In this document: piece after piece, positions 32,850 to 64,000 of the stretch | Layout of the letters: every line of letters starts with the position of its first letter | Position numbering within the stretch: position 1 is the first letter of the stretch | Notes under the pieces: model-generated | What the model saw: the letters and a program-made list of their open reading frames with translations, nothing else | Told to the model about the DNA's origin: nothing | Database searches by the model: none | From: Diplonema papillatum | Lineage: Eukaryota > Euglenozoa > Diplonemea > Diplonemida > Diplonemidae | NCBI GenBank assembly: GCA_030068145.1 | Contig: JAPJBO010000008.1 | Span: 248,001 to 312,000 of the forward strand | DNA: 64,000 nucleotides | Direction: 5' to 3' | Made by a program: the position numbers and the translations under genes

Positions 32850-35800
32850 GTATGTGTACTTGCTTGTGATAATACACCGGCTCCTTGAACCCATGACAGA
32901 CAACCTGCAAGTCTGGACACCTTGCACAACGTATGTGTTCACGCGAGTTCACCTTCTTTAACACAGTGCGGGCGAAAAAGATGCGGACGACAGGGGAAAA
33001 GACAAGTGCCCCAAACCAGAGGAAGGTCTTTTTGCAAGTCCGCAGCTGCCGCTCGATGATAAGGTTTGTTTGTTATCGCTGTGCTTGCAGCAATCTCATA
33101 CACACACCCTACATACTTGCGAAGATTTGGTAAAAAAGCAGCTGTCCTTGCTTTTACCCTTCTAAACAAAGGCAGTTCACGCTTTTTTCTTTTTTAGAAA
33201 CATTTTCTCCTTTCCTCCTTTACTTTGATCATAGGTGTCACGGCAAGTTTTGGCAGCCGCTGCTTAACAAAGTTAGTAGTGCATGCTAATCCATGTGGTT
33301 CATGTACTTAAAAGAACTCAATGCTTAACAAGGAGGAGGCTGGGGGGAACAAAGCAGAGAGACCCAGCAGTGGGGACACGCCTACCGACAGGGCGGACCC
33401 CCGGTCAGACTGGAACGGGGTATCCCCGAGGGGCCCCTGAAAGAAGCGGCGGATCTCATACGTGACCGTCTCGGGTGGGAACCGGACCAGTTGCTGGCCA
33501 ACTGGTACCGGAGGGGAGTGGGGATCAACCCCCACAAAGACCAGAGAGAACTGGGTCCGAGGGTAGCGACCATATCGCTCTTGAGCGACACGGTCATGGA
33601 GTGGGAGAGGGGGAGCCGGAGAGTGAGAACCCCCCTGCCGGTCGGCACACTGTGCCACATGGAAGGCGAGGCCAGGAGCCTGTGGACACACGGGATTCGT
33701 CCCGATGATGTCGCACGCGACCGGGTCTCGCTCACCTACAGGGCCGTGCGCGAGGCCGCCTCCCAACGTTTGCAAGGCCGGGACACCCCGCAAGAAACTC
33801 CCCCCATGCCCCCCCCGCCCCGCCCTCAGGCGTCCTCCCCACCCCCCCAGCAACAGTTCAGCCCCGCGCCACGTACTGACTTGTGTAATCGCCAAAGAAC
33901 TCTTATATCTATTAAGGAAACTACTAGACAGCAGCTGTTAAGCGCTGGAGACATCGAACAGAACCCGGGCCCCGGCCGCACGGAGATGAAGTTCGCGACG
34001 TTGAACGTAACTAGCTTACTTCAATATCTCCCAGCGGCCGACGCGGTGGAAGCGGATCTTCTCTGCTGCCAGGAGGTGACACTCCTTCCGTGCAAACGGG
34101 CGCAGGCGGAGGAATACCTGCGGAAATGGTGCTGCCACTGGGGCCTGCCGCCTCCCGGAAGACTCTGTAGAAACTCCGGTAGTCGCTCGACGGTGAACGC
34201 CGCGAACGGGGGGCTCTCCACTCTAGTACTGAGACCGATACCTGCGTACGATACGATGACGGCGCTCTCGCACGCAGCAATACGGTCCCCGGACCGAGTG
34301 AGCCATACGGTAGTAGCAACAGGGGCCGGCAACACGTTCGTGCACGTGTTCAATGTCTACTGCCCTTCCGGAAACGGGAGGGCGGAGAGCGAGGAGCGTG
34401 AGGACATGCTGGAGAAGATCCTCTTCGCAGCGGCAGATAGCCTCGGTGACGTCCCCATAATGGTGATGGGTGACCTGAACACGGAAGAAGACCGGTCCCC
34501 TGTGCTGCGGAAGGCACTAAGGAACGGATGGTCCGACGCAGCGGAACTGCACCATGCGCGTACCGGTGACACACCGCCACCACCGACCTTTACCAGCGCC
34601 CGGACGACAGGCACGAGGATCGACCGCATACTCCTCAACCGAATAACGACGGGAGCTTTCCGTCAATGCGTCACCACCGCGGTGAACGTACCGGGACACC
34701 GGCTCGTGACAATGACCCTGGACATTGCGGCGCTGCGCCAAATCGTGTGGCGATTTAAAGTACCGCGGGAAATCCCTACCGAGGGGGGACCCAAGTGGGG
34801 CCTCTCGGACACAGAAGCTAACAGGGAAGCCGTACAGAGACTGACCAACTCCGATTTCGCAGAACGGCTGGCAGCACAGCGAGTGGAAGAGGCCTGGCTC
34901 GAGTGGTCACGAGTCAGTGAGCAGTACTTGCAGGATGCCTTCGGAATCCCTGCGGAAGAAAGGGGAAGGAGTACCGGCCGGGGGATAAAGACGTCGCCTA
35001 AGAGAGTCTGTATCACGGCAAGCACTGCGAGCGACGGGTCGGGGGCGGCGAACAGCAGACAGCTACGGCTCCGGAAGGCCATCCACAGGATGGAACGCAT
35101 CTGCAGCTACCTTGCGCAGCGACGCGGGCCGGAGGCAGTTCCGCATGAAGTATCCCGTTGCTGGCAGAACAGCAGACGGCTGGCACAGGCGTGCATGAAA
35201 GGTGGCCAAGGGACAGAAGGATTCCCGGATCATGAGGAGGCGAAGCAGCTTCTCACGGCATTGCGGGAAGAGACGAGTAGGCTCGGAAGGGAAGGATCGG
35301 CGGCCAGGTTTACGAAGTACCGAGACAAGCTGAACGAGAGGGCCGATGCGAGCAGACGATGTCTGACAACCATCTGCGCCGGACGCGCTGAGCCGTCGGG
35401 GGTGTTGCGAACGGGGGCGGGAGTGACTGCAAATGTTGACGAGATGGACGAGGCGCTGAACACTGCGTGGGACCCTATCCTGCGTAAGTACAAGGACGGG
35501 CCAGAGCCGGAGTACGAGCCGTTTCGGGATCGGTTCCAGGATCACATCGGCCCACACTTGATGGAAGCCGGAACAATCACGGGGGAGGAGCTGCGAATTC
35601 TGCTGAGGAAGAAGCCGAAGAAAAGCGCGTCAGGGGTGGATGGCTGGCGCATGGCTGAACTGCGGGAGTTGCCGCTCCCCCTGCTGAATGCACTTGCAGA
35701 CGTCATGAACCTGGTCGAAGCGACTGGGGACTGGCCGGCAAGCATGACAACTGCGCTGGTGTCGATGGTGCCGAAAGATGAGAGCCAAGACCCGCTGCAC

Positions 35801-38800
35801 ACGAGGCCGATAACCGTCACGTCCGCCGTGTACCGCTTGTGGGCCTGCCGCAGGCTTGCGGACATTGTCCTGTGGCAGGAGGGGTGGATCGAAGAAGGAC
35901 AGAAAGGCTTTCGGCCGGGCCACCGGATCGAGGACGTCTTGATGGAGATAGGGCTCGAGGTGGAGGACGCCTTGCTGGACGGAGAGCCGCTCTACGGAGT
36001 GGCGCTGGACTTCCGGAAGTGTTTCGACATGGTCCCGCGAGAGGTAGTGCTACGCCTGGCTGAGGACTTAGGACTGCACGGTCGGGTTCTCAAGCCGCTG
36101 AGGGCGATTTACAGTCTGCTCGCAAGACGCTTCAAGTTGCCGCTAGGGGTGGGCAGGGAGTTTAGTGTGACCAACGGTATCCTTCAAGGGTGCCCTGTGT
36201 CCGTCATACTCATCAATGCCCTGCTGTCGGTAGTGATGAAAGCGGTCAAAAAAGAAGCTGAGGGTGTGAGTCCTAAGTCGTACGCGGATGATGCCACACT
36301 ACTGTCCAGGCTGTCGGAGGCCGCACTGCAAAAGGGAGTCGACATTGTTGACGAGTTCTGCACACTCACCGGAATGCAGCTAAACCTCGAGAAGACCATC
36401 GCATTCTCGACGAGGCAGAGGCACCAGTCGACGCTCAGACTCCGAAGCGGAAATGCGCTGCTGCGATTTAGCAAGTCCGTCACGTGTCTGGGGGCCCTAG
36501 TCTCAACGGCGAAGAACAGAAAGGAGAGGTCCGACTCTAAGAGGGTAGAGAGGGCGGCGGCCCTAGCGGAGGGCCTCCGCCACGCGCCATTCCGGTACGA
36601 AAAGCGGGTCCGTATTGTGCAGTCGAATGTGTTGCCGGCAGCGCTATCGGGCTGCTCCTTCGCGCCGGTGTCAAAGGTGGCGATGAAGCGGTTGACGACG
36701 TCGGTGATGGGTCTGATCTGGGGTGGAGCAAACCCGAAGCGCGCGAGAGAAATGGTCCTGAACTTCCAGGAGAAGGGCCACCTGACGGACCCCGGTACGT
36801 GTTTAGCGTACCGGGTGACGACGGCGTTCTACGCGGCGTGCGAGAGGCTGCCGCGACTGCTACCTCTGATGGAGAGTATCCGGGGGCGGTACGCCGAGGG
36901 GGACCAACCCCTCGGCCCAGTCGGGCTGGCGATGAGGAGCATGGAGGAGTGTGGACACATATGGGAGCCTGGGCCCCTATCTCGCACGCTACGACGGAAT
37001 GGTGCAGTGTTCGACCCGCTGGCCTCGTCGCCCTCGAAGAGGGGGCACGAAGTGAGGGCGGACCTGAGAACGAGGACGTGGGCCCGACTGATGGCGAGAA
37101 GGCCAGGATATCAGGGGCTGGAAAGAGCCGACTTGGAGCGCACGAATGCGTTCTGGAAGACGAGGGAATGTTCCGCGCACACGGCGAAGCTAATTCGAGT
37201 TGCGATTGCGGGGGGTGTGAACACGGCGGAGTTCACGTCGCGGATGAGGCAGGCTGGAGCTGAGCCGCAGGCGCCCAGCTGCAAGCACTGTGGGAGCGGC
37301 GTGACGGAGAACGAACAGCATATCTACTGGGACTGCGACGCATACTCACACATTCGCCGGCGGGAAGCACACGCCGGGCTGATGGCGGCCAACCGAACCG
37401 AGTGGCCCCGATGCACGCTGGAACATGGTGTGGTTGTACCGGGGAACGCCCACTTATCGAGGCGGCTCCAGGAGATGATGGCTGAAATCCTTGCGGAACG
37501 TGCAGGGCTCGAAGCACGTGGCTGGGTAGCCAGGAACCCCACGACCCCCTGGTCGAGAGCGGATGCGATGCCTGCCGAGAAATTTGACCACCCCTTTGCG
37601 CGGATTGCCCCGGCATGGACGTGGGAGCGAAACAAGACCTGGGGACTACCGACGTTTTATGCGTTGGTAGCGTGGCTGTCTGACATGCAGTGGACCGAGA
37701 GCGGGCAGGCGTCAATGCTAGAGCTTGCGATCGACTTTGAACTCTTCTCGGGCCTCAGCATGCCGCTGCACGGGAATGCGCCGAAGGGGGTGAGAGAACG
37801 GGGAAACGTCCTGCGCTGCATGATGAGCGCGTTGGACAAGCTGGCGGCACAGCAAGGGCTGGGAAGCTGCATGAGAGGGGAGAGGGTGTGCCCGACGACG
37901 TCGCTGTCGTTCATGGGCATCTCGGGGATATCGGGTGTACGGCCCAGGCCACGCTTTCGCGAGGCACACACGGGGACGATACTTGAGGAACAAGTGAAAG
38001 GAAGCGATGTAGGGACGCAGTGCCCGGCGTACCCTGACTGGACGATCGGGAGAGCGGCGAGGTGGGCCCTGCCTGCCCCACCACAACTGCACCCAGACCC
38101 CGTGCATATGCCGGGTGTCGATATAGAGAAGGCACTCGTCACGTGCGCGACCCATCACAAAGGGAAGTGTGAGGCGTGCAGAGCACTCGTCCGAAGGGAC
38201 GTGCCCACGGTAGAGATGTGCTGCCGGCACCATCACCACGCGAACGATGGGCAGCCGATCGCGGTGTGCACAGAGCACAGCACGACGAAGTGCGGCGAGT
38301 GCAAGACGGCGGCGGCGTGTTGCCGCAGCGGGCATCATGCCTGCCGCACGCATGGCAGAGGAACCTGCCAAGAGTGCAAGAGGCTCCCTACGCTGACGCA
38401 GAGGCGACCGGCGGCATGTTGCCGCCGCGGCCACCACCAGTCCAACGAACCGAACGTCCCGTCAACCCCCGGACGCAACAAGAAGAAGAGGCCCTCCTCA
38501 CCCACCCAGGTGGGCGTACAACGGGGAACGCCAGTTGGAAAGCGAGCGGCGCAAGCGCCGCCCGCGGCAACGAAAAAGGAGACGGCGACGACCGGACGGG
38601 CGACCAAAAGGCCGCCACCAACGCCAGGAACCAGCGAACGACCAGCGCTGAAGAAAAGGGTGCTAGGCACCCCGAAGGAAGGCCCGATCGCCGGCCGCAA
38701 GCGGAAGAAGACGAAGGCGACCACCCCCGACTCAGGGGTGCATCGAAGGAAGAAGAAGGTACCGAGGGCAAGCAGCTCTCAGAAACGACCGGGGACCACG

Positions 38801-41800
38801 GGCACACCAATGCCCTCGAAAGTGAAAAACGGACACACGTGCCCGCCCTCGTACTCGCCGACTCAGTCTCTGGAATCGCAAGAAAGCCAAACCCCGCTAG
38901 CTCCACAAATGCTCGACCTTGACGACGCAATGGCAGGTGACGACGTCATCCGATAACCTGACTTTCAAGGCAGTGCATGCTAATCCATGTGGTTCATGTA
39001 CTTAAAAGAACTCAATGCTTAACAAAATTTGACGTGGGCGGCTTTGGGTTTACACCTGAATGACACCTCAATACAAAAAAAGTTGTCAACAACTAACAAG
39101 TAATAAGCATTTATTCGGCAAGATAATTTCCGTTTATTTTGTCGAGGTGTCGGTTTTAGTCCCGAGGGAGGCCCGAGGGGGGGTTTGCAACCCCGAGCCA
39201 CGAGTGGCGACCACTTCCCCTGCAGTCGGCCCTGGTGAAGGTGGGACGGAAGAGCTTCCGGTACACACTTCAAAGTCGACGGCGAGCTCCGCCGTCGAGA
39301 CGTCACCCGCCACCGACCAGCACTTCCCATCCAGTCAATACTGCAGCTCCCGGAACTACCTCTCTCCTCCGACCGCCGCGAAGGTCTCCGGTCCCGCGAT
39401 CGCTTCGAAATCCGGCCGGCGCGTGATATATATATATATATCAGAGTATATATGCTCTCCTTTTTGCCGCAGCTAATCCTGTCACTACCTGTCAAACCGT
39501 GACTCCCAGTCTGTCCTTCCTTCTCATCCTATTCGTTCCTCTTCGGGGCACGCATAGCACAGGGCCGCTCTGCGCAAGTTGGAGCCGTAGTGCTGCACCT
39601 TTGTCTGGAGATCTTCCGGGCAGTGTCGTAGCGACGACGGACGGGACACCGTTGAGCATGCGTGCGAGGGTACTCGGAAAACTTTTACAAACCGTCGGGG
39701 ATGCGCTGGAGCGAAACGGCGACGGACCGCTTTTGCCAGGCAGGAAACTGGAGAAATAGGGTCGCTGAGAACCGTGGGAGCCCCTCCGTGCCTCACGGGG
39801 TACGAGATGAGGCCGATCTTCCGTGGTGGTACGGAGACGATGGAAGTGCTCGAGACACAGGTGACGACGGCACGAGTTCAGCGGCGAGGCGCGGGGGATG
39901 GATCTTTTCCCGACAAGTGCGGCGTGTGATAGCGCCGGGGCAAGTCGGCGTGATGCTGTGAGGTCCACCACAAGGATGACGACGGCCTAGCGGTGAAGTT
40001 CTGCCGGCAACACCGCATGACGCAATGCGCGACGTGTAAGACGATAGCAGAGTGCTGCCGCAACGGACACCTGACCATGGCATGCCGACGTGTGCACTGC
40101 AGCCGGCTCGCGGACTTGCGAAGTCGAAGGCCCAAACTGTGCTGTCGGAAGGGGCACCACCGGGCGGCCTTGGCGAGCGGAGAAGACAGCAAAGAAGAAG
40201 ACGAAGGCGGAGCAGCCCCGTGTCTGCACCGAAGGTGGCGAAGAGGGAAAACGCTCCCAGAAGCAGCGGGAGAAGATGGGTCCGAAGAGCGGGAAACCTC
40301 ATCGCTCGGTGGCCAAGGTCGAGAAGACGGCGCCAACGCGAGCGAAGAAGCGGCAAACGGACTCCGCCGGAGCCTGTCCCTGCCGCCATAGCCATCTTAT
40401 CCTCGGTCTTCAGCATGGCCATTCTGACTGTCATTCTGGTTATCAACCATACTCCTCGCTCGGGTTGCCGTCTTCGACCGCGACCGCCTCTGATAGTTTG
40501 GGTTAGAATGCAAATAATCTGTGGCGATTATTTGCATCGCCGGTGTCGCGGTTATCTCTTCGTAGGTGATGTGTCATGGTTTCGCCTCTTTAGCTTGTCT
40601 TGATCGTCGCGCTCAGGCGCGCGTTTGGTGCCTCGCTTCTTCTTCGATTGCTCGTCCAGGTTCATCGGTTGCGCGTCGATTTCTGCTTCTTCAAGGCGCT
40701 AGGGCGATGACCGTGTTGCCTTCTGTGGGGTCGTCTGCCCGCTCGGCTTCTTCGCTTGCGCTTCGATGCGTACTTTGCGCTTTTTGATACTAGAACAGAG
40801 AGACAGCGAGTCCTTCTTGTGTGGGGTAGTCACACCTTCGCAGTCCCAGGACCTCCACCCACTTGCAAACAGCCGTCGACTGACCTTTCCGGGAGGGGAC
40901 GAGTTGGAATGCGGAGAGCTTCCGGTTTCTCCCAGAGTAGAGGAGCTGAAGCAAACGCCACCTGGGCCTCTGAACGTGATTGCGGATCACCTTCTTGCCC
41001 AAACCCAAGAGAGATTAGAGTGTCGGAATGGCGCGCAAGGAGAGGCTCTTGGCTTGTTTGCTTCTTTCGCTGGCGGGAGGGAGATTTCGGACTCGGGAAA
41101 GCCTTGGGTTCTTCGGGCTCTGCATCCTTCTGTTCCAGAGATCGTAGAGTAGTTTTCCCGCAACCGACTTTTTTGCGAGTCCTACGATAGCGGTCGAGTC
41201 TACTTTTTTCAAAAAATCCTTCATGCGCATTCCACGGCGGCACGGAAGCACCACCCCCGACGCCCCCTGTCCACCGACAGGCTCCATTTTTCGAAAGGCT
41301 TGGCCCTGTTGTGGAAGGCTCAAGCAAGAGGAACCGTTTTGGTCACTCCAAACCTCCGGGTTTTGCGCCGGTGCATGGCGTTTGAAAAAATTCCCCTACA
41401 AAATTTAAAAAAGGACACCCCAAGGTCAGTTCCCCGTAGTTCCCCCGTAGTTCCCCTTGGCTATGCCGACCACACCAACTACGCATTTCTTTCTACCGAT
41501 CTACCACATGGGTCTCATTAGAGCTACCAGTGGAGGATCTGGCTAAGCACTGATGCACTTCTCCGGAACTGCTATCACTTGTTCTAAAAAGCCACGTGGC
41601 GGAACAGAAAGTTCTGACGACGTGCCTCACATTGCCCCCCTGAGCGGACGTGAGACAACTGACAACACACTAAACATCTTCTTTGATAGAAGACATCCCC
41701 ATCAGCTTCAATGATACTCCAAAGTAAAGCCGGAATACCCTCCCAACCCCTACGTGCGAAATAATACAACCTTTCAGAACATGTTGCAGTTCACCAGTAC

Positions 41801-60935: not shown

Positions 60936-61081
60936 CGAAAAGCTGGCATAGTGTGGTACTCATTTGCTTGCAAATGACTCCCCACTAACGCAACAAGACG
61001 ACGAAAAAGCGTGAAAAAGCGTGAAAGGGACCGAAATTCTGGCCAACGATTTAAAAGCTACAGTTTCTGTACTTTATTGTT

Positions 61082-63208
61082 GTGATGTGGGGGAGACTGG
61101 CAAGGGAGCGGGGGGAACACATCACGGCGATGGCGGCGCTTTCGGCGGCGCCATCGTCGATGCTCGACCGCCTCGGAGAAGCAGCGGAGCGGGCCAGCCG
61201 GGCAGCAGCGGCGGCTCGAAGCCAGAAGGAGCGAGGGGTGGCGCTGACGCTCCTGGAGGCGGCTATCAGCCTCCTGGAGGCGGAGCAGCGGAACGAGACG
61301 AGCCAGGGGGAACCGGCGCTGTCGCAAGGACGGCCGAAGTACCAAGGCGAGGATCGTGAAGGGGCACCGCAACAGCAACAACAGCAACAGCAACAGCAAC
61401 CGCAACAGCAACAACAGCAACAGCGACCGCACCAGCAACAACAGCAACAGCAGCAGCAACAGCAACCGCACCAGCAGCAACAGCAACAACAGCAACAGCA
61501 ACCGCACCAGCAACAGCAGCGACAGCCACAACAACAACGGCAACCGCGGCAACAGGCACAACAGCAACCACAACAACAGCAGCGACAGCAACAGAAGCAA
61601 CCGCAACAGCAACAACAGCAGCAGCAACAGCACCAGCAACCGCAACAGCAGCAACAACAGCCACAGCAGCAACAGCAACCGCAACAGCAACGGCGGAACC
61701 GACCGCAACAACAAGAGCAACCGCAGCAGCGGCAACATCAGCAGTGGGTAGACGTCGTCAGACGCAAGGCGACCGTGTGCGGCGTGCACAGTTTCGACTG
61801 GAACGTGCCGATCCTCGAGTCGTGCTCATTCGAGGCGAAGAAGGAGGGGCTCTGGGTCGCACCCAGCGTCGATGAGGCCGAGACGGCGATGGGCGTGGCG
61901 GTCGATGCTGCGGCGCTGGCGACAGAGGAGGTTCGGTACGCGGTGTTGTGCCGACAGCCGTTCGAGAAGAGCGAGGCGCGCCACGTCCTCATGGAAACAG
62001 GCGTGGTGCAGCGGATGCACCTGTGGACGCACGGGGACGTTCGGCAGGCCGGGAAGGTAGGGAAGGTCCGGCAGGCGGCGACAGAAGGCGAACAGAAGCC
62101 CGGCGCTGCCACGGCGGTGCTCGTCCTCACCGTGGCACGCAAGCACGCGACGGCAGAGACGTGGGCATGCGTGGAGAAGGACCCGCACGCGGCGATGACG
62201 CGGCTCTGCCGCCGGGCGGTGAAGGCGACTTCGGCGCAGACGCGCCTCGAAGCGGCCTCCATGTGGGGCGTGACGTCGCAGCAGGGCCGCCGAGAGCTCC
62301 TGGTTCGCGTACCTGCGGGACACGTGGACGCCATCCTGCAGGGGTCGGGTAGGGATGGCTGCTTCTGGCGACCAGTCGGGAAGGAAGCGCGCGACGCCAC
62401 GCCGGTCGTCGCATTAAATGCGGACGTGACGCGGGAGACCGCGTTGGCGTTGTTGAAGAAGTGCGGCGAGGCCGGGGGCGGTGTCGTTCTTGGTGGAAGG
62501 CGTCTTCTGCTGCGGGCGCGCGGGTCGGGGATGCTGGCGCGCGTGCGGGCGGCTGCTGGTGAGCACGCGGCGCCCCCGCTCGAAACGAAACTGCGGTACC
62601 TCGTGTCCGGTGCCAGGGCGCGAGAACACGAGGCCGACGTCGAGATGCTGCTCAGGCTCGCTGGCTGGGCTGCGACGGTCACGACATCCTTCGTGAGAAG
62701 CGGATCGCGGACGTGCGTGGTGACGGGGGATGGCGGCCCGCCGTTCCGCGTCATCGAAAGGGAAGGGTCGCCCTTCATTGTCGTCAACGACTACGACAAG
62801 GGCGAGATGCCGCGGCCGCGTTCTAAGCGCCTCGCCTCCTCCCTCCCGACGACGCCCGGCCAGAGGCGGCGCATGAAGCTGCCCGCCGCCGAAGTTCATA
62901 CGGATCCGGAGCCGGCTCCGTCCAACAAGCGGAAGCACGAGGAGGTGACACAGCCGGCGGAAGCGGGACAGTCGCTAATCCAGCGAGCTGTGGCCGGTGT
63001 GGTCGAGATGCTGTCCCCCCCGCGCCAGCGTCTGAAGGAGCCGGTCGAGGGTGAGAAGGCCGGTCACCGGCACGAGCTGTCCGATGGGGTGCGGGCTCCA
63101 GCGGAGTTTAAATGCGGCGATTGTCAGAAGACGATCCAGAAGGGCCGCATGCAGAGGAGGTGCGAAGAGTGCGGCGCCAGCGTGTGTGTCACGTGCTCGC
63201 GCGCCTGA
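61082..63208 (+). CDS. LINE ORF1: poly-Gln protein with C-terminal zinc finger
   Basis: 708 codons. Residues about 95-220 are a Gln-rich tract (61368-61745, CAG/CAA mixed, with His/Pro/Arg). A globular region follows (HSFDWNVPILESCSFEAKKE, then AVLVLTVARKHATAE, LLVRVPAGHVDAIL) that I cannot assign. The C-terminus is a Cys finger, CGDCQKTIQKGRMQRRCEEC followed by CVTC (63115-63195). The stop is UGA at 63206-63208 and the same frame stays open after it. The start codon choice is uncertain because the frame is open before 61082. LINE ORF1 proteins usually bind element RNA. Confidence 0.75.
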   Translation: MMWGRLARERGEHITAMAALSAAPSSMLDRLGEAAERASRAAAAARSQKERGVALTLLEAAISLLEAEQRNETSQGEPALSQGRPKYQGEDREGAPQQQQQQQQQQPQQQQQQQRPHQQQQQQQQQQQPHQQQQQQQQQQPHQQQQRQPQQQRQPRQQAQQQPQQQQRQQQKQPQQQQQQQQQHQQPQQQQQQPQQQQQPQQQRRNRPQQQEQPQQRQHQQWVDVVRRKATVCGVHSFDWNVPILESCSFEAKKEGLWVAPSVDEAETAMGVAVDAAALATEEVRYAVLCRQPFEKSEARHVLMETGVVQRMHLWTHGDVRQAGKVGKVRQAATEGEQKPGAATAVLVLTVARKHATAETWACVEKDPHAAMTRLCRRAVKATSAQTRLEAASMWGVTSQQGRRELLVRVPAGHVDAILQGSGRDGCFWRPVGKEARDATPVVALNADVTRETALALLKKCGEAGGGVVLGGRRLLLRARGSGMLARVRAAAGEHAAPPLETKLRYLVSGARAREHEADVEMLLRLAGWAATVTTSFVRSGSRTCVVTGDGGPPFRVIEREGSPFIVVNDYDKGEMPRPRSKRLASSLPTTPGQRRRMKLPAAEVHTDPEPAPSNKRKHEEVTQPAEAGQSLIQRAVAGVVEMLSPPRQRLKEPVEGEKAGHRHELSDGVRAPAEFKCGDCQKTIQKGRMQRRCEECGASVCVTCSRA

Positions 63209-64000
63209 CTGCCGTCAAGCCACGACGCCCGCGCGGACGGCGATGCTGCGGGAGCCCGCTTGATGCGATGTGGGGATGTGCATCCCAACCCTGGCCCCGG
63301 GCGCCGAACGCTCGCCTCGACCGCCGCGGCGGCTTTCCGCCGCGGACGTCGCCGTCGACCGGCCGGCGCAGCCCGGTACGTTACCGCGCGTATGCAGCAC
63401 CGCGCGCGGGGCGTGGGTTCCCGGGTTGCCTTGCGGCGTGAGCGTGTTGAATGTGCGTGGCTACCGTCGAAGCACGACGCCCGTGAGTATGCGTACGCCG
63501 CGGGGGAACGGCTCTTGAGGTGCGGGGACGTCCACCCGAACCCTGGTCCCCCGCGCGATCTCACTCTTGCTGCAGTCAATGTTGGCTCGCTGGCCCTGCA
63601 CATTGACGAGGTGCGGGCGATGGCGCCCGCAGACGCGATTGCGGTGCTGGAGACGTCGATGGGCGAGTTGCAGCAGGCGCAGGCGACGGACTATCTCGCG
63701 AGACCGTGCGCCGTCGACGGGTCGAGGTGGAAGACGCTGTGGGGGCCGCCGCAACCGCCGAAGCGCAGCAAGCACTGTCCGCACGGAAACCCGCATTCCG
63801 GGCAGAAGGGGGGAGGAGTCGTTGTGCTTGCCAGGCAGCCGGGGGTGGCCCACCTGCTGCCCAACGAATCGCTGCAGGAAGTGCGCAACCGGGTCATCCA
63901 CACGATGATCGCGACGGGGGTCGGACGGATGTTCGTACACTTCTTTGCCGTCTACGCCCCATCGGGGAACACGGCAGCGGCGTCCCGGGAGCGGCTCCTG
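63209..64000 (+). CDS. LINE ORF2 start: tandem 2A motifs and endonuclease (runs off window)
   Basis: In the same frame as ORF1, directly after its UGA, and open to the window end. Encodes LPSSHDARADGDAAGARLMR then CGDVHPNPGP (63269-63298). After 54 residues of Arg-rich sequence, a second copy LPSKHDAREYAYAAGERLLR then CGDVHPNPGP (63521-63550) leads into the endonuclease: TLAAVNVGSL, MAPADAIAVLETSM, GGGVVVLAR, FFAVYAPSGNT. The first ATG is inside the first 2A, at 63263. With ORF1 this is the 5' part of an apparently whole LINE. Confidence 0.8.
   Translation, partial: MPSSHDARADGDAAGARLMRCGDVHPNPGPGRRTLASTAAAAFRRGRRRRPAGAARYVTARMQHRARGVGSRVALRRERVECAWLPSKHDAREYAYAAGERLLRCGDVHPNPGPPRDLTLAAVNVGSLALHIDEVRAMAPADAIAVLETSMGELQQAQATDYLARPCAVDGSRWKTLWGPPQPPKRSKHCPHGNPHSGQKGGGVVVLARQPGVAHLLPNESLQEVRNRVIHTMIATGVGRMFVHFFAVYAPSGNTAAASRERLL
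63269..63298 (+). other. First 2A-like motif
   Basis: CGDVHPNPGP, followed by Gly. Differs from the strict consensus by His in place of Glu, as is common in metazoan LINE 2A-like motifs (recalled). Confidence 0.8.
63521..63550 (+). other. Second 2A-like motif
   Basis: CGDVHPNPGP again, 252 bp (84 codons) after the first, in frame, immediately before the endonuclease domain. Confidence 0.82.

Follow-up and report, generated by a model that had tools for sequence, protein, structure and literature searches.

A family of long interspersed nuclear elements (LINEs) in the genome of the marine protist Diplonema papillatum (Euglenozoa, Diplonemea) carries an AlkB-type dioxygenase domain in its second open reading frame (ORF2), upstream of an APE-type endonuclease and a reverse transcriptase (RT). 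One 5'-truncated copy lies in the window, by which we mean the whole 64,000-nucleotide stretch analyzed here (contig JAPJBO010000008.1, positions 248,001 to 312,000). Related AlkB domains are present in Helitrons, in a giant RT element and in a fourth repeated sequence type, and by the sequences compared their clade is so far known only from repeated, mostly identified mobile elements of the D. papillatum genome. We propose that AlkB is a fixed working part of this APE-type LINE lineage, that it has moved between unrelated element classes, and that, joined to the ORF1 protein (ORF1p), it would demethylate the RNA of the element; we give this reading, taken as a whole, about an even chance. The presence of the domain in unrelated elements suggests that mobile DNA hands on, from one element to another, an enzyme that may remove methyl groups from the RNA or DNA of its carriers.

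An AlkB domain within a LINE reading frame

The open frame at 33329-38956 (1875 aa) holds PF13532 (the AlkB family 2OG-FeII_Oxy_2), the endonuclease family PF03372 and the RT family PF00078 in a single frame. The product of 33332-33949 matches PF13532 with 51.2 bits (E 2.3e-13; curated cut-off 31.2), which bears out the original prediction, made from the letters alone, of an AlkB-type domain in the LINE frame. The motifs that it had named, including the iron ligands HxD...H and the 2-oxoglutarate (2OG) pair RxxxxxR, were located in the window copy as NWY, HKD, WTHGI and RVSLTYR, and both profile and motifs (NxY included) place the domain among the AlkB-like Fe(II)/2OG dioxygenases. The domain had been set at 33332..33760; it is real there but not complete, lacking the first ~35-40 residues of full-length sisters, and the 5' end of the window copy falls inside AlkB at 33332. 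By sequence, the best solved relative of the window AlkB is human ALKBH8 (3thp, E 3.2e-7), followed by S. pombe Ofd2 (5yl6, E 1.3e-5); ALKBH6 and ALKBH3 are weaker (E ~0.005-0.01), and E. coli AlkB and ALKBH2 reach only 0.6-1.

We searched the D. papillatum genome (271 Mb, 2910 contigs) and scored 150 of 337 first-look candidate places, the window place included. All 150 match the window AlkB at E 1.6e-93 or better, which excludes a chance motif, and 149 are stop-free within the match; 91 lie in open frames no shorter than 1850 aa, 79 in frames no shorter than 1950 aa. Identity over the 206-aa query falls in steps of 98-100%, 86-89% (with one partial match at 93%) and 74%. Nine places examined as longer stretches resolved into four AlkB-bearing LINE types: A (L031, L037, L038, L039), B (L032, L035), C (L033, L036) and D (L034). 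The copies L031-L034 have an open ORF1 of 460-650 codons and an open ORF2 of 1992-2046 codons, the latter in the order linker, AlkB, linker, 2A, endonuclease, RT and Cys/His-rich tail. Endonuclease and RT in one frame, many copies and 5' truncation mark these elements as APE-type non-LTR (long terminal repeat) retrotransposons, a class assignment that rests on domains, copies and truncation (window copy, L047, L048). The window copy is 99.6-99.9% identical to the four full-length subfamily A copies, with a short length change relative to them near the junction; being 5'-truncated, it is unable to make the whole protein, which its sisters might.

ALKBH8 consists of an AlkB domain flanked by an RRM (before) and a methyltransferase domain (after). 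Pfam detected neither partner in the ORF2s of A and C or in the ORF1s of A, B and C, where the 0-2 weak matches all fell below cut-off; the label ALKBH8-like refers to sequence only.

The LINE AlkB domain is under purifying selection, as had been proposed for checking. Its ratio of nonsynonymous to synonymous substitution rates (dN/dS) is 0.29 (A-B), 0.19 (A-C) and 0.18 (B-C), with bootstrap upper limits of 0.54, 0.31 and 0.30, and its protein identity among the three types is 86-91%; the linkers on both sides show dN/dS of 0.39-0.94 and protein identity of 42-75%. Elsewhere in ORF2 the ratio is 0.15-0.18 in the endonuclease and 0.01-0.07 in the RT, and a pair of Helitron AlkBs gives 0.19. Synonymous divergence (dS) shifts along ORF2 (A-B, for example, has a low dS in the endonuclease and a high one from the RT onward), so the LINE subfamilies look partly recombinant. 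A one-off host fusion, which the original prediction would have accepted had sister copies lacked the domain, is ruled out by the copies, the purifying selection and the sister families: the four types of its own lineage all keep the domain, and two sister families are without it. A contaminating or bacterial gene is likewise ruled out, since the domain sits in LINE frames on many contigs.

An in-phase UGA between ORF1 and AlkB

In A, B, C, D and the two AlkB-less families, S40 and E, ORF1 ends in UGA followed by CU, with the ORF2 frame in phase (6/6 types). The codon after UGA is CUG in A, C, S40 and E, CUA in B and CUC in D. Loci L001-L030 are the best matches to the window copy, i.e., near-identical subfamily A, and 25 of these 30 contain TGACTG; in the sequence examined it is preceded by at least 300 open codons in 22 loci and by 111-156 in 3, and 21 of the 25 lack an ATG between UGA and HxD. 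Met before HxD is also absent in the B and D copies read, and the ORF2 frame has an in-frame ATG at codon 17 in A (L031) and at codon 32 in C (L033).

The phase across UGA is kept despite exchanged ORF1s. A and C are 85% identical in ORF2 and 26% in ORF1, and B and D are 98% identical in ORF2, their best ORF1 match being 34% over only 64 aa. At the UGA boundary similar ORF2s are joined to different ORF1 types, a pattern reminiscent of the reticulate ORF1 evolution reported for Jockey-superfamily LINEs.

The AlkB-less sisters share this layout. ORF2 of S40 (L040), the start of which lies in the window, is 38% identical to that of A from 2A to residue 1622 of the 1992 of A. A search with its endonuclease (116 of 1748 candidates scored) recovered its own family and a second family at 55-56%. 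This second family, E (L066), reads ORF1, UGA CUG CC, 26 aa, 2A, ~110 aa, 2A and endonuclease; the junction was read in one E copy and two S40 copies (L040, L067). The ORF1p-AlkB model is supported by these AlkB-less sisters, which keep the same UGA-CU and 2A slot. As a separate observation, the tandem 2A motifs of L040, L066 and L067 stand ~80-110 residues apart and enclose a small cassette in the slot that AlkB occupies in the other lineage.

An in-phase downstream frame, a conserved stop context and coding selection past the stop (AlkB dN/dS <0.3) are all present at this junction, as would be looked for in readthrough, and UGA-CU is a leaky stop context in other systems. We infer that UGA-CU is a site of programmed readthrough, and AlkB is predicted to be a readthrough extension of ORF1p, given in-phase ORFs across UGA-CU and the lack, in most copies examined, of an AUG before the active site. 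The motifs GDIEQNPGP and GDVEQNPGP of the LINE copies conform to the 2A consensus D(V/I)ExNPGP and are predicted to function as such. The original prediction had AlkB released as a separate protein by this 2A; the motif would indeed part AlkB from the endonuclease-RT, but the likely product is ORF1p-AlkB, not a free enzyme.

A different expression route, compatible with any function, would have AlkB made from a non-AUG or reinitiation start after the ORF1 stop and freed by 2A. The CUG after UGA in four of the six types and the in-frame ATGs of A and C would suit it, as would the lack of a detected stimulatory RNA fold downstream of UGA. The CUA of B and the CUC of D, the lack of Met before HxD in both, and the phase kept in 6/6 types even though ORF1s were swapped and linkers vary in length speak for readthrough, and we regard this route as unlikely. 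CUG as the ORF2 start codon is unlikely for the same codons in B and D. RNA structure as a readthrough stimulator was set aside, with no consistent signal and two of five folds near z -2.

The same AlkB clade in other mobile elements

A protein search at E 0.001 returned three D. papillatum proteins and nothing else. The element AlkB frame P0008 is named tRNA (carboxymethyluridine(34)-5-O)-methyltransferase in the database, and P0007 (DIPPA_14024) appears to be a host gene model to whose end a piece of LINE AlkB has been attached. When the AlkB of P0008 was searched against the genome (150 of 325 candidates scored), 22 places matched at 85-99%, and frames of 3488-4088 aa hold 8 of these; the other 128, at 73-77%, include the AlkB-LINE places. 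The one of the 22 that was read (C1171:48600-62830; L043, L044) is a giant element with an open frame of at least 4080 codons running to the contig end. It holds AlkB (44.2 bits), RT (76.6) and a USP-type ubiquitin C-terminal hydrolase (33.4, above cut-off), together with an OTU-like domain at 20.3 bits, below the cut-off of 23.3; a further stretch, which we take by eye to resemble the restriction-like endonuclease (RLE)-type tail of other RT elements, gave no profile hit.

LINE and giant element are related at the DNA level over 511-527 bp of AlkB at 80-83% (blastn). Further matches comprise a 51-bp piece of the pre-AlkB linker (B) and 101 bp at 74% (D 5' region), and the remainder are a 29-bp piece of A and low-complexity repeats. 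With an AlkB dS of 0.43 between A and the giant element against 0.42 between A and C, the exchange appears roughly as old as the LINE subfamilies. P0009 (DIPPA_31097) combines a part that is tyrosine recombinase-like by eye with AlkB and an RT-element tail and is perhaps a prediction artefact or another element; that its recombinase-like part belongs to the giant element is unsupported at C1171, where a tandem repeat lies upstream.

A genome scan with PF13532 (150 of 250 candidates scored, all 150 above cut-off) placed host-like frames mostly first, and frames of 1767-3249 aa were among the matches listed. Two of these, L045 and L046, are Helitrons in which AlkB lies close to the N-terminal end of the Helitron frame: Helitron_like_N scores 132 bits in both, AlkB 54.6 (L045) and 63.6 (L046), and PIF1 53.8 in the longer stretch of L046. 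The protein P0028 joins the Rep (HUH) and PIF1-type helicase that define a Helitron in one polyprotein with AlkB (132, 53.8 and 63.6 bits). Scanning for Helitron_like_N (76/76 candidates scored) gave 68 matches in the genome, at least 6 of which have AlkB 2-3 kb upstream on the same strand, apparently in one frame with Rep in 5 of those 6, as judged by frame length; AlkB is thus present in some Helitrons, not all those seen here. L045 and L046 are 97% identical over 864 aa (Rep and beyond) and only 68% in their AlkB regions, so the N-terminal AlkB may have moved between Helitron backbones.

The Helitron and LINE modules show no DNA kinship by blastn at E 1e-3, and their relationship therefore rests on protein identity (42-44%) and the tree. 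Among 438 candidates for AlkB-Helitrons elsewhere none reached E 1e-3, an absence made weak by length and shared-word limits. There is a fourth repeated AlkB type (L060-L062, L065), and upstream of L065 lies a fragment of a PIF1 helicase. The original prediction considered AlkB as a novelty in LINEs only; relatives of the domain also occur in a Helitron and in another RT element.

The LINE AlkBs are 75-78% identical to that of the giant element and 44-46% to the fourth type; between the fourth type and the Helitrons identity is no higher than 37-38%, which by itself would not group the two. No mobile AlkB exceeds 37% identity to any of the host and database AlkBs compared. A tree built from 31 rows, eight host AlkBs included, separates the 7 mobile AlkBs from the 24 others by one branch (support 100/99, length 1.56). 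L046, L045 and L065 stood in for L057, L059 (Helitron-type) and L060-L062; P0018, P0021 (truncated), the host AlkBs L050-L052 and the AlkB of D (L034, 98% like B over ORF2) were omitted. The rest of the tree is weak, with 12 of 28 inner branches open and several long branches. Within the mobile clade the giant element stands beside the LINEs at 90/47, and a LINE + Helitron grouping is not rejected (p-AU 0.46). A close host paralogue missing from the eight sampled could in principle break the clade.

The seven catalytic and cofactor positions (N, Y, H, D, H, R, R) are invariant across the 7 aligned mobile AlkBs. A profile search that scored 8000 candidates returned 18 proteins from outside, most of them without a name, which cover 40-98% of the domain with 28-43% identity (best E 9e-12). 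Used as a profile, the mobile AlkBs match ALKBH8 best (E 2e-18), followed by Ofd2, a DNA N6-methyladenine (6mA) demethylase, ALKBH3, ALKBH2, ALKBH6, ALKBH5 and AlkB. In viral contigs, 35 pattern matches yielded no confirmed member of the clade.

A proposed role and its alternatives

AlkB occupies the slot between the ORF1 stop and 2A in the LINE. We hypothesized that ribosomes reaching the end of ORF1 would read through the leaky UGA-CU, adding AlkB to the C-terminal end of ORF1p, and that after the 2A halt synthesis would continue into the endonuclease-RT, giving one ORF1p-AlkB per RT. The predicted products are ORF1p, ORF1p-linker-AlkB-2A and endonuclease-RT. ORF1p, presumed to bind RNA, would keep AlkB on the element's own RNA in the ribonucleoprotein particle, where AlkB would oxidatively remove N-methyl groups: 1-methyladenosine (m1A) or 3-methylcytidine (m3C) that block RT, or N6-methyladenosine (m6A) used by host readers. 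The benefit could be longer cDNAs or a stealthier mRNA.

Several points weigh against this proposal. The 25 UGAs of subfamily A are not independent, as these copies are near-identical; 5 of the 30 loci (the truncated window copy and four that differ) do not contain TGACTG, B and D share one ORF2, and in the B copy L035 the frame before UGA is open for just 101 codons. Five RNA folds downstream of UGA (z -0.83, -1.96, -1.93, -0.47 and +1.48) give no consistent signal. The bootstrap ranges of the linker dN/dS values (lower limits 0.19-0.57) overlap those of AlkB. The active-site stretch of the LINE AlkB is HKDQREL, from which the HxDDE feature of DNA-repair ALKBHs is absent, and ALKBH8 hydroxylates a tRNA wobble base and is no demethylase. 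Furthermore, Helitrons have no RNA transposition intermediate, while still needing mRNA, and a role limited to the RT template would leave this carrier unexplained. With a Helitron among the carriers, the target would be either the mRNA of all elements (m6A/m1A) or DNA (single-stranded DNA, 3-methylcytosine (3mC) by-products or 6mA).

Such a DNA-side role, in which N-methyl lesions or marks would be removed from element DNA (single-stranded cDNA or rolling-circle DNA, 3mC arising as a by-product of cytosine methyltransferases, or 6mA), would explain the Helitron carrier, and the same clade heads the Helitron polyprotein. The Helitron AlkBs have HIDDE at the active site, and the mobile profile reaches ALKBH2, ALKBH3 and a DNA 6mA demethylase, even though its best match, ALKBH8, is an RNA enzyme. 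The host has homologues of 5-methylcytosine (5mC) methyltransferases (PMC10161547). The LINE fusion, however, is predicted to be to ORF1p and not to the cDNA-making endonuclease-RT, and we consider the DNA-side role somewhat unlikely.

Action in trans on host mRNA, tRNA or protein, weakening silencing or favouring element translation, would fit carriers both with and without an RNA intermediate, and the best solved relative, ALKBH8, acts on tRNA. Homologues of the RNAi machinery that could be countered are reported from the genome (PMC10161547). The predicted ORF1p fusion points instead to action in cis, and the RRM and methyltransferase partners of ALKBH8 were not found by Pfam in the ORF1s and ORF2s listed above; a host-directed role is thus quite unlikely in our view. 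That the folded AlkB is catalytically unimportant and retained for RNA binding or as a structural extension of ORF1p has parallels in several plant viruses with nonfunctional or lost AlkB domains (PMC11784248), but is very unlikely with seven catalytic and cofactor positions invariant among modules whose most distant members share no more than 37-49% identity.

Building on the ORF1p-AlkB proposal, we further considered that three unrelated classes (the APE-LINE, the OTU/USP-bearing RT element and the Helitron) might exchange AlkB as an eraser cassette against an N-methyl mark that diplonemids would use to recognise or silence elements, an idea we hold to be possible but short of probable. If true, Euglenozoa would have an undescribed defence, based on methylation and directed at all kinds of elements, and the elements would have a common counter-defence that spreads among them, with the LINE delivering the eraser as an ORF1p-AlkB fusion by UGA readthrough.

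Features of the window and the LINE tail

The elements in the window are mapped in Table 1.

Table 1. Features of the AlkB-LINE copy and of the AlkB-less sister LINE S40 in window coordinates
Feature	Position	Strand	Evidence
Second copy of 52-bp tail, directly 5' of truncated end (head-to-tail junction)	33279..33330	+	exact match to 38973-39024
5'-truncated AlkB-LINE copy, subfamily A; without ORF1 and ORF2 start	33332..39024	+	
AlkB domain, N-terminal part missing; ends approximate	33344..33772	+	PF13532, alignments A1 and A2
AlkB motif NWY (NxY)	33500-33508	+	sequence
AlkB motif HKD (HxD)	33533-33541	+	sequence
His of AlkB motif WTHGI	33689-33691	+	sequence
AlkB motif R-VSLTY-R (RxxxxxR)	33722-33742	+	sequence
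Pro-rich linker, fast diverging	33773..33946	+	aa identity 42-75% among A, B, C; dN/dS 0.39-0.72
2A (StopGo) motif GDIEQNPGP	33947..33973	+	sequence
APE-type endonuclease domain	34001..34642	+	PF03372, 35.3 bits
Reverse transcriptase	35795..36409	+	PF00078, 68.2 bits
ORF2 stop TAA	38954..38956	+	sequence
52-bp 3' tail	38973..39024	+	at most 2 mismatches at 3' ends of eight longer copies L031-L035, L037-L039
ORF1 of S40 (Q-rich, C-terminal Cys/His cluster)	61055..63205	+	47% identical to subfamily A ORF1, 490 columns
TGACTG: ORF1 stop UGA + CUG, ORF2 in same frame	63206..63211	+	sequence
Start of S40 ORF2, no AlkB: 2A, spacer, second 2A, endonuclease start	63209..64000	+	
NPGP of first S40 2A	63287-63298	+	sequence
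NPGP of second S40 2A	63539-63550	+	sequence

The 52-bp tail, which ends in GAACTCAATGCTTAACA, also stands directly 5' of the window copy, L033, L038, L039, L047 and L048 with 0-5 mismatches over its 52 positions; a partial relative was seen by eye 5' of L031 and L037, and none was found upstream of L032, L034, L035 and L036. The LINE may insert behind its own tail or a tail-like target, giving head-to-tail arrays. A target-site duplication would fit the window copy but not L031, where the upstream sequence differs from its tail. The inner 27-mer of the tail occurs 757 times exactly in the genome (370 forward, 387 reverse; 0 for the reversed-pattern control), and at the first places listed its strand comes in blocks along contigs, perhaps tracking polycistronic transcription units.

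Comparison with known systems

The position of 2A upstream of the endonuclease-RT is like that reportedly described by Odon in 2013 for APE-type non-LTR retrotransposons, and we know of no such 2A-bearing element with AlkB or with an in-phase UGA after ORF1. The element AlkBs share core motifs with ALKBH8 and bacterial AlkB-like dioxygenases, their best profile and sequence matches, but differ from them in identity (at most 37%) and in shorter loops before the core and before RxxxxxR. AlkB domains of plant RNA viruses are said to have been treated by van den Born in 2008.

In Flexiviridae and Potyviridae, AlkB forms part of a larger viral protein (PMC11784248). The likeness lies in the selfish carrier; the viral AlkB sits in the replicase or P1, with no DNA stage and no link to an ORF1p. 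Closer in kind are the Ty3/Gypsy elements of the orchid Phalaenopsis, which carry an ALKBH5-like ORF whose protein has m6A demethylase activity on RNA in vitro (PMC9289625). Orchid and Diplonema elements are alike in being retrotransposons with an AlkB whose iron and 2OG ligands are intact. The orchid carrier is an LTR element with a separate ORF, its domain nested among ALKBH5-like host genes of plants, whereas in Diplonema an APE-type LINE carries an ALKBH8-like domain of a separate mobile clade, predicted to extend ORF1p and with relatives in Helitrons and an RT element. Retrotransposons of dinoflagellates and charophytes carry cytosine methyltransferases (PMC5890265), so that there too distinct retrotransposon classes have captured a methylation enzyme; those are 5mC writers captured independently, while the Diplonema domain is a putative eraser of one clade found across classes.

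The D. papillatum genome paper lists LINE-like, SLACS-like, Helitron-like and other frames, treats a dozen AlkB-type genes apart from these frames as host regulators, and reports that gene replacement works in this species (PMC10161547). Such gene counts may include element copies, P0008 being named as a host tRNA-modification enzyme. A search of titles and abstract starts in the open-licence literature, with subscription journals and Repbase outside its reach, found no description of AlkB in a LINE or Helitron, and within that scope transposon-borne AlkB had been found for one plant LTR lineage only. Element-borne AlkB is thus already known, and what is unusual is its sharing across classes, together with the predicted readthrough-2A expression route. 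One AlkB clade in a LINE, a Helitron and an RT element of a single protist offers a testable case that mobile DNA as such benefits from nucleic-acid demethylation and that accessory domains are traded between elements. In the predicted route each RT would be accompanied by one ORF1p-bound enzyme, which gives a simple means of asking whether retrotransposition is limited by modified bases.

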